DNA of 64,000 bases from Rhodothermia bacterium. Its GTDB lineage: Bacteria > Bacteroidota > Rhodothermia > Balneolales > Balneolaceae. This document shows, piece after piece, positions 24,718-59,200 of the stretch. The notes under the pieces were generated by a model. It did no database searches and had not been told where the DNA came from. It saw nothing but the letters and a program-made list of their open reading frames with translations. The stretch is from NCBI GenBank assembly GCA_030427885.1, contig JAUICM010000011.1, positions 1-64,000 of the forward strand. Direction: 5' to 3'. Both the position numbers and the translations under genes were made by a program. Numbering within the stretch: position 1 is the stretch's first letter; every line of letters begins with the position of its first letter.

Positions 24718-26199
24718 CTATTTAATCAAAAGTAGTTTTTCAGATGCAGTGAAGGATTCAGTTTTCAGTCGGTATATATAGAATCCTGAGGCGAATCCAG
24801 ACGCATCCCACTCAATTTCATGGTTGCCCATAGTCATATTTTTATCTATCAAAGTCTCTATAAGCTGCCCTGTGGAGGAATAGATACTAAGCTTAACCAT
24901 CCCTGATTTACCCAACTGAAAAGGGATAACAGTAGACGGATTGAACGGGTTTGGATAATTCTGACCAAGGCTGAATGAATTAAGGCCATCATTAAGTTCT
25001 TCAACAGAAGTACCTACAAAGGAAGTTTCATTTGAAAAATCAGATTGAAACCCCATTACATCTGTCATAGTAACTTTATAAGAATATGATCTATCGGGAT
25101 CGATAGTTGTATCAGTGAAAGCCTGAGTAAATGCAGATGCGTGGATCTTTTCGAATTCTCCATTGTCCTCACTTCTGTAAACAGTGATATTTTTTATGGC
25201 CTCTGATGATCCTTCCCACGTTAGGCTGATGCTATTGTCACCTTTCGAATGCTGAAGGTTTGAAGGAGGTTCGGGGCGGTCTAATGGGCCAAGATCTATT
25301 TTATAAAGGCCCGAAAAATTAGTGATGAACAGGGTAAGTCGCTCATTTCCACCCCAACCAAGATTAGTTGTTGATCCGGGTACGTTGATAATATCCAATA
25401 CATCTCCATCCGGAGAAAAAATAATCACACCTTCTGAACCTGTAGCCCATACATTTCCGGCTTTGTCCACTTTCATTCCATCAGCACTTGTTTGGTCAGG
25501 ATTGCCATGCTCATTTGCAACACCAAAGACTTTGCCATTGGCAAGTGTCGAATCATCAATAACATCGAAAACATGGATCTTACTATTATTTGTTTCGGCA
25601 ACGTACAATTTTGATTCATCGGGTGAGAAAGCAATTCCGTTTGGATAGGAAAGAGAATCCACTAATAATTGAGCTTCACCTCCATCTGGTGGAATTCTGA
25701 ATACTCCGTGGAAATCGAGTTCAGCGGGGTTTCCTCCCCATGGCGGATCGGTAAAGAAAACTGCTCCATCAGATTTGACAACCAGATCATTCGGACTATG
25801 GAATTTAGAACCATCATAGGTAGTTGCCAAAGGTGTAGTGTTAGTGAAGTCTGAAGAAAGTCGACTAATACGACGTGCACTGTGCTGAGCTATAATTACA
25901 TTTCCATACAAATCTCCGGTAATCCCGTTCGTTTGGCCTGAAAATAATTTTACGAGCTGCACTCCTTCATCTTCTGTCCATTTGTAAATCCTGCTCTCAG
26001 ATACATCACTAAATAGAAGGTAGCCATCAAGATGCCAGTATGGGCCTTCACTGAGGCTGAATCCATTGGCAATTAATTCGACACTAGCCGTATCAGGAAC
26101 AGGTGATTGGGCGTGTATTTTGAAGTTACTGCTCATCATAATCAGAGCAAAAGTGAACAGTAAACGGTTAAAACTAAAACCGTGTGGTCGATGAAACAT
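24718..26199 (-). CDS. SMP-30/gluconolactonase-like protein with T9SS sorting domain
   Basis: A 493-residue exported protein. After a signal peptide ending in KIHAQ come SMP-30/LRE-type beta-propeller motifs (GPYWHLDGYLLFSDV, FHSPNDLVVKSDGAVFFTDPPWGG, YPNGIAFSPDESKLYVAET), which bind a divalent metal in lactonases. A fibronectin type III-like domain (about 315-395) follows. The C-terminal 85 residues are a type IX sorting domain (NYPNPFNPSTV ... SGFYIYRL ... KLLLIK). It should be exported by T9SS and kept on the surface or released. Sugar lactonase activity is plausible but inferred. Confidence 0.85.
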   Translation of the reverse strand: MFHRPHGFSFNRLLFTFALIMMSSNFKIHAQSPVPDTASVELIANGFSLSEGPYWHLDGYLLFSDVSESRIYKWTEDEGVQLVKLFSGQTNGITGDLYGNVIIAQHSARRISRLSSDFTNTTPLATTYDGSKFHSPNDLVVKSDGAVFFTDPPWGGNPAELDFHGVFRIPPDGGEAQLLVDSLSYPNGIAFSPDESKLYVAETNNSKIHVFDVIDDSTLANGKVFGVANEHGNPDQTSADGMKVDKAGNVWATGSEGVIIFSPDGDVLDIINVPGSTTNLGWGGNERLTLFITNFSGLYKIDLGPLDRPEPPSNLQHSKGDNSISLTWEGSSEAIKNITVYRSEDNGEFEKIHASAFTQAFTDTTIDPDRSYSYKVTMTDVMGFQSDFSNETSFVGTSVEELNDGLNSFSLGQNYPNPFNPSTVIPFQLGKSGMVKLSIYSSTGQLIETLIDKNMTMGNHEIEWDASGFASGFYIYRLKTESFTASEKLLLIK

Positions 26200-53669: not shown

Positions 53670-56600
53670 ATGAGACATTTATTCGGGGTAGCAGTAATCT
53701 GGCTTTGCTTTGCTACTAATATTTATTCAAGTCCAGTATCTTATTTTTCTATTCCCGTTCTAAATCGAAACGTTTCAAACTCTGAAATTTCAAGCGAAAA
53801 CTTAGAAAGTAGAAACAGAGTTTCTGATGCTAATGAAACTAAATTTAAACCTTTGGTTTTATATAATATCACTTTTGAAGTTGATCTGAGTGAAGAAATA
53901 TTAAAAAGAAACTTTGACCCGGAAAATGAAAACCATAAAATCTCAGTAGCTGGAGAATTCAACGGTTGGAGTACAACAGAAAATTACTTAGTCCAAACTG
54001 GAGCATTTAATAAATACAGAGGAGAGGTTGATATTTATGACACGGCAATTCCCGACACTTATCTGTATAAATTTGTTCTCGATAATGGAGATTTAGTTTG
54101 GGAAAGTATTGAAGAAAGAGTGATTTCCGTCTCAAAATCAGATTCTTTGGACGGTAAATTTCAGAAACTAAATTATTTACGTAAGGTACCTGTATTTGAT
54201 AAAATAGGTGAGCCCGATTCGGTAAATCAATGTGATTCAGTTACAAAGCCATGCTTTGAAGACAAGTTTGTTTTATTCTTAAATGGCGTGAATGTACATA
54301 TACCGTCAATTGATGGAGAAGTTGTTCATGACCCAAAAGATATAACAGGAGATAATCGTGTTTTTAAAATTAGTTATTCTAATTGGGCCGAAAGTGGATT
54401 CAGATGGCCGGGTATTGGTGATAGAGACACAGTAGGATTTGACGCAAGTTCCTGGACTGCAGATAACTATGGAGATACAGATACACTATTCTTCCGGCTA
54501 CTATCAAGCCCGGTAAATGAAGGTCAGGACGACTTTTTAGCATTCTTCGATTCACAATCAGAACATGATCCTTTTGCTGGAGTTGATGATTTACCTTTTA
54601 GATTGCGTTGGAAAATTCCTGACTGGGCTCATGATGGAGAATGGCATGATTTTGCAGTACCACTCCCTCCACGTACGGCCGCTTTGTTAGATTCAGCAAA
54701 AGCAGGAAAGAATTATATCGGAGAGGATTTGGAGATTGAGGTCGATAGCTTGTTTATGAATTGGGAATATTCAGGTGCCTGGGCTTCAGGGTCGGCAACT
54801 TTTGTAATGAATAGGACAGATCCAAATTGGGATGAGTTTGATTGGCAGTCAGTAAAATATATTGGTCGTCATGCTGATCATGCTAATGGAGGTGATCCCA
54901 TATACCTTGATTACTTTTCTGTTGGAGTAAGTCCTGAAGAACTAATTGATGAGAAAACAGGCTCTGTAGAAAATGTAGATGTAATGGCAATAAATGGGAT
55001 CAATTCGATCTCATGGAGTGGGTTAGAGGAAGCATTTGGATACAATATTTATTTCAGTGAGTCACCAATCCCGGAAGTTTTTAATCCGGATGATGTTACT
55101 TTAATAGGGTATTTAACGAAAGATGAACAGCTTACAATTGATCATGATCTTATTGCTCCTTATGCAGGTTTTAATGAGAATTTTACTGCTTACTATGGAA
55201 TTACTGCACTTTCAGAATTTGGCTCAGAAAGTAATATTGTAACAACTTCAATAACTTCTGACCTGGAAATTGAAGAAAGTTATGCTTTTGGACTAAATAG
55301 TGCTTCAATTAACGATATTTACCAATCTTTTGCCTCCTCCGGTGAGGATGAAATTTCTCTTTCGGGAGTTGAGATCAGGAGTATGTTTCCTTCGGGGTAT
55401 AAACCGTTTTCAATAAATGAAAACAGAAAAATCATCGAAAATGGAACTGGCGGGGATGATGATGAAGATCTTTCCGGGAAATTTTGGATAGGATTCGGTT
55501 CAACAAATAACGAATTGATTGTTTATGCAGAGATCAAAGACGACTCGTTGGTATTTTTGAATTCGCCGGAAAGTCCAAATTCCAGTTGGGCTTATGATGG
55601 CTGGCAAATAGGGATCGGTAATTATACGCCCTCTTCTTTTATAAAATCTTCAACACATGATCCATTTCAACGTGGTGCGGAACCTGACTACCAACTTAGA
55701 GCAAGTAATATATTAGGAGGGAATCCATTTATTTATGAAGCATACACTTCTGAAGTTGTACCCAATTCACAAACTATATTTGAAGAAACCGATTATGGAT
55801 ATCGGTTGTTAACTATCATTAATACGGTACATCTAACAGACAACGTAATCACACAAAATGATACATTATTCAATTTTCCAGATTCTTCAGAAATAGCATT
55901 ATATCCATTCAACATAGCTATAGATGATAATGATGGAGTAAATGGAATCCGTGATACACAAGTATCCTGGTCAAGACTGGCAGGAGATGATACCTGGTGG
56001 AGAGACCCAACTCAATGGCAGACCATAGCATTTGTAGGGAAAAACAGAGTACAGAGTTTAAGCCATTATACAAGTTCATTACTTGGTTTAGAATCCAAAG
56101 AGGGGTTTCTGAGTGATACTATGAGTTTTGGGATCGAACTTTCAAAACCGGGTGATGAGCCCATTGAATCATTTCAGTTTGATATAGAGTTTGACACATC
56201 GAAGGTGAGTCTAGAGTCTATTGAACAAGATGGATTCTTGTCCGAAGGCTTTACTATCGTAACAAATGACTCCATTCCAGGAGTCCTGAAAGTATCTGCC
56301 GCTGGAGCTTCCGGCGTCGAAACAGAGGGTATTTTATATGGAATGCATATAATTCCTAAAACAGCAGACGAAAGTAATGTTTCACTTAAGGAAATATTCA
56401 TCAATGAAGAGAAGCATGACCCATTGAGTGCCACTCTTAAGTTTTTTGAGCGACTTTGTGGAGATGTTACAAATGATCGTTCTATAAGTGCTCTGGATGC
56501 AACGTTTATTCTTCGAAACACGGTTTTCCTTGAGCCTCAGTTTCCATTGGTTGAATTGGATTCAATAGCCGCCGATGTAACAGGTAATGGCGACATCACC

Positions 56601-57308
56601 GCCTTTGATGCTGCAAAAGTGCTTCAATACGATATCGGGCTTATAGAAACATTATCGTGCGGAGGAAGCCTTGGAAAGTCAGCACAGGCAGCTTCAAAAG
56701 CCAGATGGGAAATTGTTTACGAGGATGAGTCAAGCCTTGAAGTTATGATCGATTATTCTGCGAGTAATCTGGAAATCAGCTCTATGGAACTTCTGCTAGA
56801 ACTTCCAAACGAAATTAGCTTCAAAAATATTGAGGGTCTTCAAAAGGGCTGGACAGAAACTTCGAATACGAAAAATAGAAAGTCATTCATCTCAGCATTT
56901 GGCCTGGCTCCACTCGAGAAGAAAACAATGAAAGCAGTGTTCACCAAGAACAACAATGAATTGGTATCTGGATTAGAGGGAGAGTTGATGTTCAATGAAT
57001 CTGTCCCTGTGAAACTACCTAAGATATTGCAGACTGAAATTCCGGAAGAATTTGCTTTGGAGTACAATTATCCGAATCCATTCAACCCGGAAACGAATAT
57101 TGCCTATGCCTTGCCTGAGCGGGTAAAAGTTGAATTGTCGATCTATAATATACTTGGCCAAAAGGTAGCTGAATTGGTGAACACAGTTCAGGAACCGGGC
57201 AAATACAGCGTAAGATGGGATGCATCTCGGATGTCAAGCGGTGTTTACTTTTACAGGATCTCTGCAGGTAAATTCGCTTCCTCTAAAAAAATGATGTTGA
57301 TCAAGTAG
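53670..57308 (+). CDS. Multidomain T9SS exoprotein with CBM-like, cohesin and dockerin modules
   Basis: A 1212-residue exported protein. After a signal peptide there is a CBM48-like glycogen-binding module (about 66-168, AGEFNGW), a large beta-sandwich (about 196-420) with GDDP-type sequence, an FN3-like domain (436-525) and a CBM9-like domain (about 540-795, DDNDGVNGIRDTQVSWSR). Residues 812-925 resemble a cohesin. Residues 928-995 hold two dockerin repeats (GDVTNDRSISALDATFILRN; ADVTGNGDITAFDAAKVLQY). A second short beta domain (1010-1115) leads to a T9SS sorting domain (NYPNPFNPE). No catalytic domain was identified. Binding to polysaccharide and to a partner is the best inference. Confidence 0.75.
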   Translation: MRHLFGVAVIWLCFATNIYSSPVSYFSIPVLNRNVSNSEISSENLESRNRVSDANETKFKPLVLYNITFEVDLSEEILKRNFDPENENHKISVAGEFNGWSTTENYLVQTGAFNKYRGEVDIYDTAIPDTYLYKFVLDNGDLVWESIEERVISVSKSDSLDGKFQKLNYLRKVPVFDKIGEPDSVNQCDSVTKPCFEDKFVLFLNGVNVHIPSIDGEVVHDPKDITGDNRVFKISYSNWAESGFRWPGIGDRDTVGFDASSWTADNYGDTDTLFFRLLSSPVNEGQDDFLAFFDSQSEHDPFAGVDDLPFRLRWKIPDWAHDGEWHDFAVPLPPRTAALLDSAKAGKNYIGEDLEIEVDSLFMNWEYSGAWASGSATFVMNRTDPNWDEFDWQSVKYIGRHADHANGGDPIYLDYFSVGVSPEELIDEKTGSVENVDVMAINGINSISWSGLEEAFGYNIYFSESPIPEVFNPDDVTLIGYLTKDEQLTIDHDLIAPYAGFNENFTAYYGITALSEFGSESNIVTTSITSDLEIEESYAFGLNSASINDIYQSFASSGEDEISLSGVEIRSMFPSGYKPFSINENRKIIENGTGGDDDEDLSGKFWIGFGSTNNELIVYAEIKDDSLVFLNSPESPNSSWAYDGWQIGIGNYTPSSFIKSSTHDPFQRGAEPDYQLRASNILGGNPFIYEAYTSEVVPNSQTIFEETDYGYRLLTIINTVHLTDNVITQNDTLFNFPDSSEIALYPFNIAIDDNDGVNGIRDTQVSWSRLAGDDTWWRDPTQWQTIAFVGKNRVQSLSHYTSSLLGLESKEGFLSDTMSFGIELSKPGDEPIESFQFDIEFDTSKVSLESIEQDGFLSEGFTIVTNDSIPGVLKVSAAGASGVETEGILYGMHIIPKTADESNVSLKEIFINEEKHDPLSATLKFFERLCGDVTNDRSISALDATFILRNTVFLEPQFPLVELDSIAADVTGNGDITAFDAAKVLQYDIGLIETLSCGGSLGKSAQAASKARWEIVYEDESSLEVMIDYSASNLEISSMELLLELPNEISFKNIEGLQKGWTETSNTKNRKSFISAFGLAPLEKKTMKAVFTKNNNELVSGLEGELMFNESVPVKLPKILQTEIPEEFALEYNYPNPFNPETNIAYALPERVKVELSIYNILGQKVAELVNTVQEPGKYSVRWDASRMSSGVYFYRISAGKFASSKKMMLIK

Positions 57309-57310
57309 CT

Positions 57311-59200
57311 ATGAAAAAAACGATATTATTATTGCTGATTCAGTTATTTGGGGTTGTGTTGCATGCACAGGTAAACCTGAGTATGCCAGATACAGTAATC
57401 AGCAGAGAATTGGAACAACTAATGATCCCTGTAAAAATCTCTGATATAGGTGAGGATGATATTTACGGTTTTTCGTTAGAGCTTGGTTTCGATCCTGAAG
57501 TTATATCTATAACAGGTTTTTCTCAGGAGAACACGTTAAGTCCTTCCTTTCTAATATTTGATAATGCAGGTAATTACGGATTATATCTTATTTCAGGGGC
57601 AGGTTCGGAGGCGATTGGTCACGAAGGAGTGCTGATTGTTCTGGAGCTTGCTATTCTTGATACTGGTTCTACCACATTGGAGTTTTCCCAAGTCAAGCTG
57701 AATGAAGGATCCCCCGCTGTAAACCCAACTGATGGTCTGATTAAAATTGTGCAGCCTCCGGCTAGCCCGGATCTTCAATCTCCAAAAACAGAGGGACTGG
57801 TAGAGAAAGATCTTACCCTGCTATGGTCTGCCGAACCAACAGCGAAAGAGTATAACATTCAGGTCTCGACAAATAGCAATTTTGACGTACTGGTGATGAA
57901 CCAGCAGCTGGAAACCAATGAGATCGCTCTGAGTACTCTTGATTTTGATACCCAATATTACTGGAGGGTTCGTACTCAGAATGAATTAGGTTATAGCAAT
58001 TGGTCCGGATCGAGAAGTTTTACAACACGTAAACAGATTCCGGGAGCTCCATCTCTGATTGGCCCTGAGGATGTAGCTGGGGATCAGAGTACAGAATTGA
58101 GTCTGATCTGGAGTCAGTCTGCTCGTGCAGATTCTTTCCGCGTGCAGGTTTCACTTCAGGATGACTTTACAAGCCTGATGACCGATTCTGTGGTGACAGA
58201 TTCCATACTTTTTGTATCGGGATTAGATTTCCTGCAAACCTATTATTGGAGGATAAAGGGATTGAATAATGGGGGAGAGAGTGAATGGTCAGAAGCGTTC
58301 TCATTTACAGTCATGGAAAAGCCCAATACTTTTCCTATCGTTTCTTCTCCGCTAGGGAAACGTATACTTTCAGAAGACTTTGATGAATTTATAATTGCAA
58401 AGCTCGATACCGTATTTTCAGACCTTGAGTCAAATTCTTTGAATTATGAAATACAAATACTTGACGAAGAGATCTTAAGAATTGGACTCAATGGGGGGCA
58501 ACTTCGTCTGATTCCGATAGAAAATAGTTATGGTAATACAGAAATAATTGTAAAGGCTACGGATGGAAACCAGGCTTCAGTATTTGATACCTTAACAATA
58601 ACTGTAGAGTCAGTAAATGACTTGCCATATATAGGAGAGCTTCCGGATACTGTTGTGTTTATTGCTGGAGAAATATACAAACTTGAGGGTTTGCTGGATC
58701 TGATAGGGGATATAGAAAATCAGATAAATGATTTGATTCTAAGTATTGAATTGGAAAGTAATTTTGACTTATTGGCAACTCTGGACCAAACCGAAGGTTC
58801 GGTTACAATAACAGGGGAAGTGGGTACGGGAATCCTAAAGATAAAGGTAACTGATCAGGATGGAGGTGAAGCAACAGCATCGGTACAAATTGAAGTAATA
58901 TTACTGGAATCATCAGAAGATCAGCCAGCTATTGCTGAAAAAGTTACACTTTCTCAAAACTACCCAAACCCTTTCAACCCGTCTACAATTATCAGTTTTA
59001 CACTTCCGCAATATTCTGAAGTAAGTTTAAAGGTATTCGATCTGGCAGGGAGGCAGGTTATAACAGTTATTGATAAGAGAATGGGGGCAGGGAAACATTC
59101 TGTTTCATTTGATGCTTCAAAACTAACTTCAGGTATCTATTTTTACCGTTTGGTGACGAGTGGTTTTACTGAAACGAAACAAATGATGCTGATCAAATAA
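57311..59200 (+). CDS. T9SS exoprotein with cohesin, FN3 and Ig-like domains
   Basis: A 629-residue protein that starts 2 bp after the preceding stop, so it is in the same operon. Signal peptide 1-20, a cohesin-like domain (about 22-148, with PVKISDIGEDDIYGFSLELGF), two FN3 domains (about 160-240 and 255-335, both with YYWRV/YYWRI strands), two cadherin/Ig-like domains (337-435, 440-530) and a T9SS sorting domain (NYPNPFNPST ... GIYFYRL ... MMLIK). No enzyme domain. With the dockerin in the upstream protein it could form a surface assembly. Confidence 0.75.
   Translation: MKKTILLLLIQLFGVVLHAQVNLSMPDTVISRELEQLMIPVKISDIGEDDIYGFSLELGFDPEVISITGFSQENTLSPSFLIFDNAGNYGLYLISGAGSEAIGHEGVLIVLELAILDTGSTTLEFSQVKLNEGSPAVNPTDGLIKIVQPPASPDLQSPKTEGLVEKDLTLLWSAEPTAKEYNIQVSTNSNFDVLVMNQQLETNEIALSTLDFDTQYYWRVRTQNELGYSNWSGSRSFTTRKQIPGAPSLIGPEDVAGDQSTELSLIWSQSARADSFRVQVSLQDDFTSLMTDSVVTDSILFVSGLDFLQTYYWRIKGLNNGGESEWSEAFSFTVMEKPNTFPIVSSPLGKRILSEDFDEFIIAKLDTVFSDLESNSLNYEIQILDEEILRIGLNGGQLRLIPIENSYGNTEIIVKATDGNQASVFDTLTITVESVNDLPYIGELPDTVVFIAGEIYKLEGLLDLIGDIENQINDLILSIELESNFDLLATLDQTEGSVTITGEVGTGILKIKVTDQDGGEATASVQIEVILLESSEDQPAIAEKVTLSQNYPNPFNPSTIISFTLPQYSEVSLKVFDLAGRQVITVIDKRMGAGKHSVSFDASKLTSGIYFYRLVTSGFTETKQMMLIK

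Follow-up and report, generated by a model that had tools for sequence, protein, structure and literature searches.

The complex of AfuDoc75 and AfuCoh76 from Archaeoglobus fulgidus forms in vitro (PMC9705933), and in Ca. Stygibacter (Cloacimonadota) a T9SS-anchored scaffoldin with dockerin-bearing enzymes has been proposed (PMC8542988). These two systems are the nearest precedents for the adjacent genes described here, designated A and B, which lie in the window, that is, the whole stretch of 64,000 nucleotides that was analysed. The Archaeoglobus pair, whose genes we take to be adjacent, is likewise a non-cellulosomal dockerin and cohesin from neighbouring genes, and 2XDH was the best PDB match of our cohesin profile; in contrast to A and B, it is archaeal and without T9SS, and we know of no CBM payload in either of its proteins. 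The Stygibacter system resembles the present locus in combining cohesins and dockerins with a conserved C-terminal domain for attachment to the surface, whereas its scaffoldin is a single 3755-aa protein with multiple cohesins, accompanied by hydrolases and peptidases that carry dockerins, and A and B form a two-gene unit without a dockerin enzyme.

Other known systems are related in part. The module families and the calcium-loop layout are those of the clostridial cellulosome (type I), but a scaffoldin and enzyme-borne dockerins are absent here and the genome holds one dockerin. As in the Ruminococcus bromii amylosome, the dockerin occurs alongside starch-binding modules, although it is not carried on an amylase and export is by T9SS. 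The Clostridium perfringens GH84/GH33 cohesins (2JH2, 2VO8, 2W1N) are non-cellulosomal cohesins of secreted proteins and include the top structural match of the A cohesin (Z 15.0), but they are attached to glycoside hydrolases.

Non-cellulosomal cohesins and dockerins are thus already a known kind and have long been recognised from sequence, while their partners and purpose are obscure in most lineages. In the open-access literature, outside which most subscription journals lie, we found no earlier description of a two-gene T9SS unit of this sort or of Balneola-type cohesin/dockerin proteins. A conserved two-gene unit supplies an obvious candidate partner for each dockerin, so that direct testing becomes feasible in many families, and it offers new candidate orthogonal cohesin–dockerin pairs for protein engineering.

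Modules of proteins A and B

Genes A and B are separated by 2 bp on the same strand, with B downstream, and are probably co-transcribed (Table 1). Promoter and terminator scans scored no better than shuffles, and comparison with phage records gave no match. In A, the CBM20/48-like module, region 186–430, the FN3-like module and the CBM9-like module precede a C-terminal end of cohesin, dockerin, cohesin-like module and T9SS sorting domain, and in B the cohesin is followed by two FN3 modules, a cadherin/Big-like region and a sorting domain.

Table 1. Positions of genes A and B and of their modules in the window
Feature	Residues	Coordinates	Strand	Basis
Gene A, T9SS exoprotein	1212 aa	53670..57308	+	ORF list, domain searches
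CBM20/CBM48-like starch-binding-type module	A 61-185	53850..54224	+	phmmer to relatives' repeats, family profile
Beta-rich module common to PUL-type T9SS proteins	A 186-430	54225..54959	+	sequence; model poor here
FN3-like module	A 431-540	54960..55289	+	Foldseek FN3 matches
CBM9-like module	A 541-800	55290..56069	+	Foldseek, sequence
Cohesin (predicted)	A 805-926	56082..56447	+	family profile, AlphaFold model, fold comparison
Type I dockerin, two calcium loops	A 931-987	56460..56630	+	Pfam Dockerin_1 (PF00404)
Second cohesin-fold module, directly after dockerin	A 1006-1128	56685..57053	+	hhalign 98.5% to cohesin profile
T9SS type A sorting domain	A 1134-1209	57069..57296	+	Por_Secre_tail 44 bits, TIGR04183 42.6 bits
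Gene B, T9SS exoprotein	629 aa	57311..59200	+	ORF list, domain searches
Cohesin	B 21-150 (Pfam stretch 37-126)	57371..57760	+	Pfam PF00963, profile
FN3 modules of B		57803..58315	+	PF00041, two stretches
T9SS type A sorting domain	B 551-624	58961..59182	+	Pfam, TIGR04183

The dockerin of A scored 30.4 bits with Dockerin_1 in the protein search and 35.7 bits in the genome search, against a cut-off of 22.9. Its calcium loops are DVTNDRSISALD and DVTGNGDITAFD, and in both of them oxygen-bearing residues occupy loop positions 1, 3, 5, 9 and 12, a pattern conserved across the clade to which A belongs. Among PDB entries, the dockerin profile matched Amy16 and Amy10 of R. bromii. An A-[F/L] pair, which we take to be the recognition pair used by C. 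cellulolyticum dockerins, precedes the last Asp in both repeats. According to a review (PMC12484212), type I dockerins show a dual binding mode; the internal symmetry of the A dockerin would allow such a mode, which we regard as a lead. Cys930 (56457-56459) and Cys997 (56658-56660) bracket the dockerin (span 56457..56660, plus strand). Neither residue varies among the six closest proteins, which suggests a possible disulfide clasp linking the dockerin ends. AlphaFold left the dockerin unresolved (pLDDT <50 with 18 sequences), and no cis contact could be read from the model.

Region 805–926 of A scored 13.8 bits with Pfam Cohesin (PF00963), under the cut-off of 24.1, whereas it reached 51 bits against the family profile. 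Its AlphaFold model (pLDDT 88-97) matched known cohesins with Z 13-15 (2VO8 15.0, 2XDH 14.3) over about 120 residues at an rmsd of 1.9-2.7 A. Profile and model together indicate that this region is a true cohesin with the cohesin jelly-roll fold despite its sub-cut-off Pfam score. Among the homologues of region 1006–1128, 3 of 17 are called Cohesin by Pfam, and the copy in A is without a Pfam match of its own. The cohesin of B passes the Pfam cut-off with 26.5-29.9 bits. In the PDB, the cohesin family profile retrieved solved cohesins at E 5e-6 to 2.5e-12, the best being the non-cellulosomal 2XDH of Archaeoglobus (E 2.5e-12).

Por_Secre_tail/TIGR04183 scores exceed the cut-offs in both A and B, so that both proteins classify as T9SS type A substrates, and the genome encodes the T9SS translocon SprA (TIGR04189, 1499.6 bits). 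Another T9SS protein, with an SMP-30/gluconolactonase-like propeller, is encoded at 24718-26199 of the window on the minus strand.

The preliminary description of this locus agrees well with these results, and both ORFs lie where it placed them. The dockerin repeats that it placed at A 928-995 correspond to the PF00404 match over residues 931–987, and they are not repeats devoid of calcium-binding dockerin residues, since the ligands are present in both loops. Its cohesin-like segment at A 812-925 was confirmed by the family profile and the AlphaFold fold, though Pfam stayed below cut-off; it had listed one cohesin-like module in A, to which region 1006–1128 adds another. The cohesin-like domain that it saw at the start of the next gene scores above the Pfam cut-off, the T9SS sorting domains that it assigned to both C-termini were recovered, and the CBM-like modules that it noted in A are the CBM20/48-like and CBM9-like ones. 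Chance or low-complexity repeats were ruled out as a source of these matches by the curated cut-offs, the profile matches to solved dockerins and cohesins, and the conserved calcium positions.

Conservation of the gene pair

In an order-level sample of 59 genomes, dockerin loci were located by Pfam and their neighbours were scored with cohesin, dockerin and T9SS profiles. The tree of 54 dockerins placed A in a clade of 21 (support 0.979), and 18 of these 21 adjoin a same-strand cohesin gene, 17 of them downstream and one upstream, a count of related loci that measures conservation and not independent events. One of the remaining members lies at a contig end and two are without a cohesin neighbour; in each of these two cases a pair is present elsewhere in the genome. 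Of the 33 dockerins that fall outside this clade, 1 has a cohesin neighbour; a cruder split into two dockerin types gave a weaker contrast (18/30 vs 3/19). Because cohesin matches amount to about one per genome (65 in the 59 genomes), a cohesin neighbour would be expected by chance in approximately 0.1% of cases. Where a genome has additional dockerin genes without an adjacent cohesin gene, it contains a pair as well in several cases.

The pair extends beyond the order. A phylum search with the dockerin-X profile covered 296 genomes, 55 of which were positive. Forty loci outside the order were taken by dockerin similarity alone, with their neighbours disregarded; L165, L170 and L173 gave no dockerin ORF with the HMM and were left out. 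Among the 37 loci counted, 28 are followed directly downstream by a cohesin-bearing gene on the same strand and 9 are not, the same reading of counts from related loci applying here. Most of the downstream genes encode one to three cohesins together with a T9SS tail. The dockerin/cohesin pair was also seen in MAGs named as Balneola or Balneolaceae.

The pairing persists though the A-type proteins share only 19-37% identity with A even inside the order. Their C-terminal part is constant, comprising dockerin, cohesin-like module and sorting domain, and the cohesin-like module follows the dockerin throughout the clade, while the N-terminal payload varies. Starch-binding payloads occur in genomes G010, G022, G025 and G027, beta-helix payloads in G048, L136, L160 and the second pair of G025, ASH/HYDIN Ig payloads in L140, L146 and L151, and a cadherin-like payload in L153. 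Many paired A-type proteins are without the upstream cohesin.

Several further arrangements were observed. The order has a second dockerin family (PGDTNNDG...W, 66-70 aa; L065, L066, L082, L091, L096, L098 and others), which is carried on stand-alone T9SS proteins. These usually have a cohesin at their own N-terminus and almost never a cohesin gene alongside. Members of a third subgroup (mostly YGD...AD; L067, L081, L085, L101, L109) adjoin T9SS proteins resembling zinc metalloproteases (HExxH). At L044-L049 (G010, G025, G027), two dockerin/cohesin pairs lie about 30 kb apart or less, with response regulator-like and sensor-kinase-like genes nearby.

Proposed docking of A on B and competing readings

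Considering the above results, we propose, with a probability of roughly 60%, that A and B constitute a two-gene surface module in which the dockerin of A docks on the cohesin of B and displays an exchangeable payload. Both proteins would be exported via the SprA translocon, and type A sorting would retain them at the surface or release them. The calcium-loaded dockerin of A would plug into the N-terminal cohesin of B at the cell surface, and the payload of A (CBM20/48-like, FN3, CBM9-like) would be held with the FN3/cadherin stalk of B in a non-catalytic complex. The unit of a dockerin gene and a cohesin gene with exchangeable payload would be a standing module of the phylum. Because the upstream cohesin is missing from many paired A-type proteins and B retains one to three cohesins, the B cohesin appears to be the constant partner, and binding of the A dockerin to it, rather than to a cohesin-like module within A itself, is the most economical reading of the sequences. 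Such a system suggests that T9SS bacteria may build multi-protein surface complexes by the docking chemistry of cellulosomes without enzymes.

Docking between A and B is weakened as a reading by the 9 of 37 loci outside the order without the neighbour, and by the separate sorting domains of A and B, with which it is unneeded for anchoring either. Its main rival is binding in cis, which the position of the dockerin beside cohesin-fold modules of its own chain makes possible. The dockerin would bind region 805–926 or 1006–1128 of the same chain, forming a rigid stalk ahead of the sorting domain, and B would be a separate adhesin of the same fold. The constancy of the module after the dockerin across the whole clade agrees with this, as do the single-gene proteins of the second dockerin family, which hold both modules without a cohesin neighbour, and a 5280-aa protein of the same genome in which a dockerin-like stretch is followed by a cohesin and a T9SS end. 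However, binding in cis leaves unexplained why a cohesin gene stands beside the dockerin gene at 18/21 and 28/37 loci, and we consider it possible but unlikely. Alternatively, A would polymerise, each chain inserting its dockerin into the cohesin of its neighbour, and so build a fibre or array on the surface that B would terminate or root. This draws on the presence of both modules in A and on a relative (G016) whose single chain combines three cohesins with two dockerin stretches, but the upstream cohesin is absent from many paired A proteins, which makes this reading improbable. A broader scheme is doubtful: a phylum-wide T9SS-exported "plug and payload" system of non-catalytic arrays, in which A chains would also join head-to-tail via their own cohesins into a calcium-dependent glycan-binding coat.

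A system of cellulosome or amylosome type, to which A would contribute a subunit without catalytic activity and whose enzymes would be encoded elsewhere in the genome, would accord with the starch-binding-type modules and with the Amy16 and Amy10 matches of the dockerin profile. This reading is largely refuted and only a very slight chance is left to it, since by Pfam the genome, which is 98.7% complete, encodes one dockerin and two cohesins above cut-off, none of them on an enzyme. The dockerin is that of A, and the cohesins are in different proteins, one in B and one near the C-terminus of the 5280-aa T9SS protein. Pfam found no multi-cohesin scaffoldin and no dockerin-bearing catalytic subunit above cut-off in the genome, no catalytic domain on A, and no glycoside hydrolase in scans of the main window ORFs. 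As the sole dockerin above cut-off sits on non-catalytic A, the system is not a cellulosome, and a cellulosome or amylosome as such was ruled out.

The genome-wide search for cohesins and dockerins had been suggested by the preliminary description, whose remark that the window contains no catalytic subunit is upheld by the Pfam scans. Its proposal of a surface-displayed, non-cellulosomal assembly fits the T9SS signals, SprA, the occurrence of the one dockerin above cut-off on a protein that is not catalytic, and the phylum-wide conserved gene order. The 5280-aa giant (G000:C4:187600-203800; L134; L056 9617-19999) ends in a degenerate dockerin-like stretch, the cohesin and a sorting domain, and the A dockerin may have a further partner in this cohesin.

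Payload of A and its possible ligand

The payload of A is predicted, from fold similarity, to be glycan-binding here. Region 61–185 is without a Pfam match of its own, but by phmmer it matches repeats in relatives to which Pfam assigns CBM_20 or AMPK1_CBM, and it retains the FNGW and YKF..VWE motifs in the alignment; the profile of such modules reaches GlgB/starch-branching enzymes, glucoamylase and CGTase (E 0.0017-0.04). For region 541–800, Foldseek ranked 1I82 first (E 2.3e-9, TMt 0.65), which is the CBM9 module from xylanase Xyn10A of T. maritima. Sequence comparison also led to the 1I82 chain (E 0.14) and showed the C-terminal signature of CBM9, FN..NDA..GR...SW...W..PS.

Residues 192-795 of A show 52% identity to a T9SS protein encoded on contig C5 of this genome. 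The gene of that protein, in the locus L057 4336-13008, adjoins a TonB-dependent receptor, with a GH3 enzyme and a LacI-like gene close by. A role in binding polysaccharide, as proposed in the preliminary description, is therefore plausible for A, given its two CBM-like modules and this related protein in a GH3/TonB-receptor locus, but it does not hold in general, since relatives carry beta-helix, ASH/HYDIN or cadherin payloads instead. Judged by gene sizes and start sequences, a setting like that of L057 also occurs in two other genera (G007, G021).
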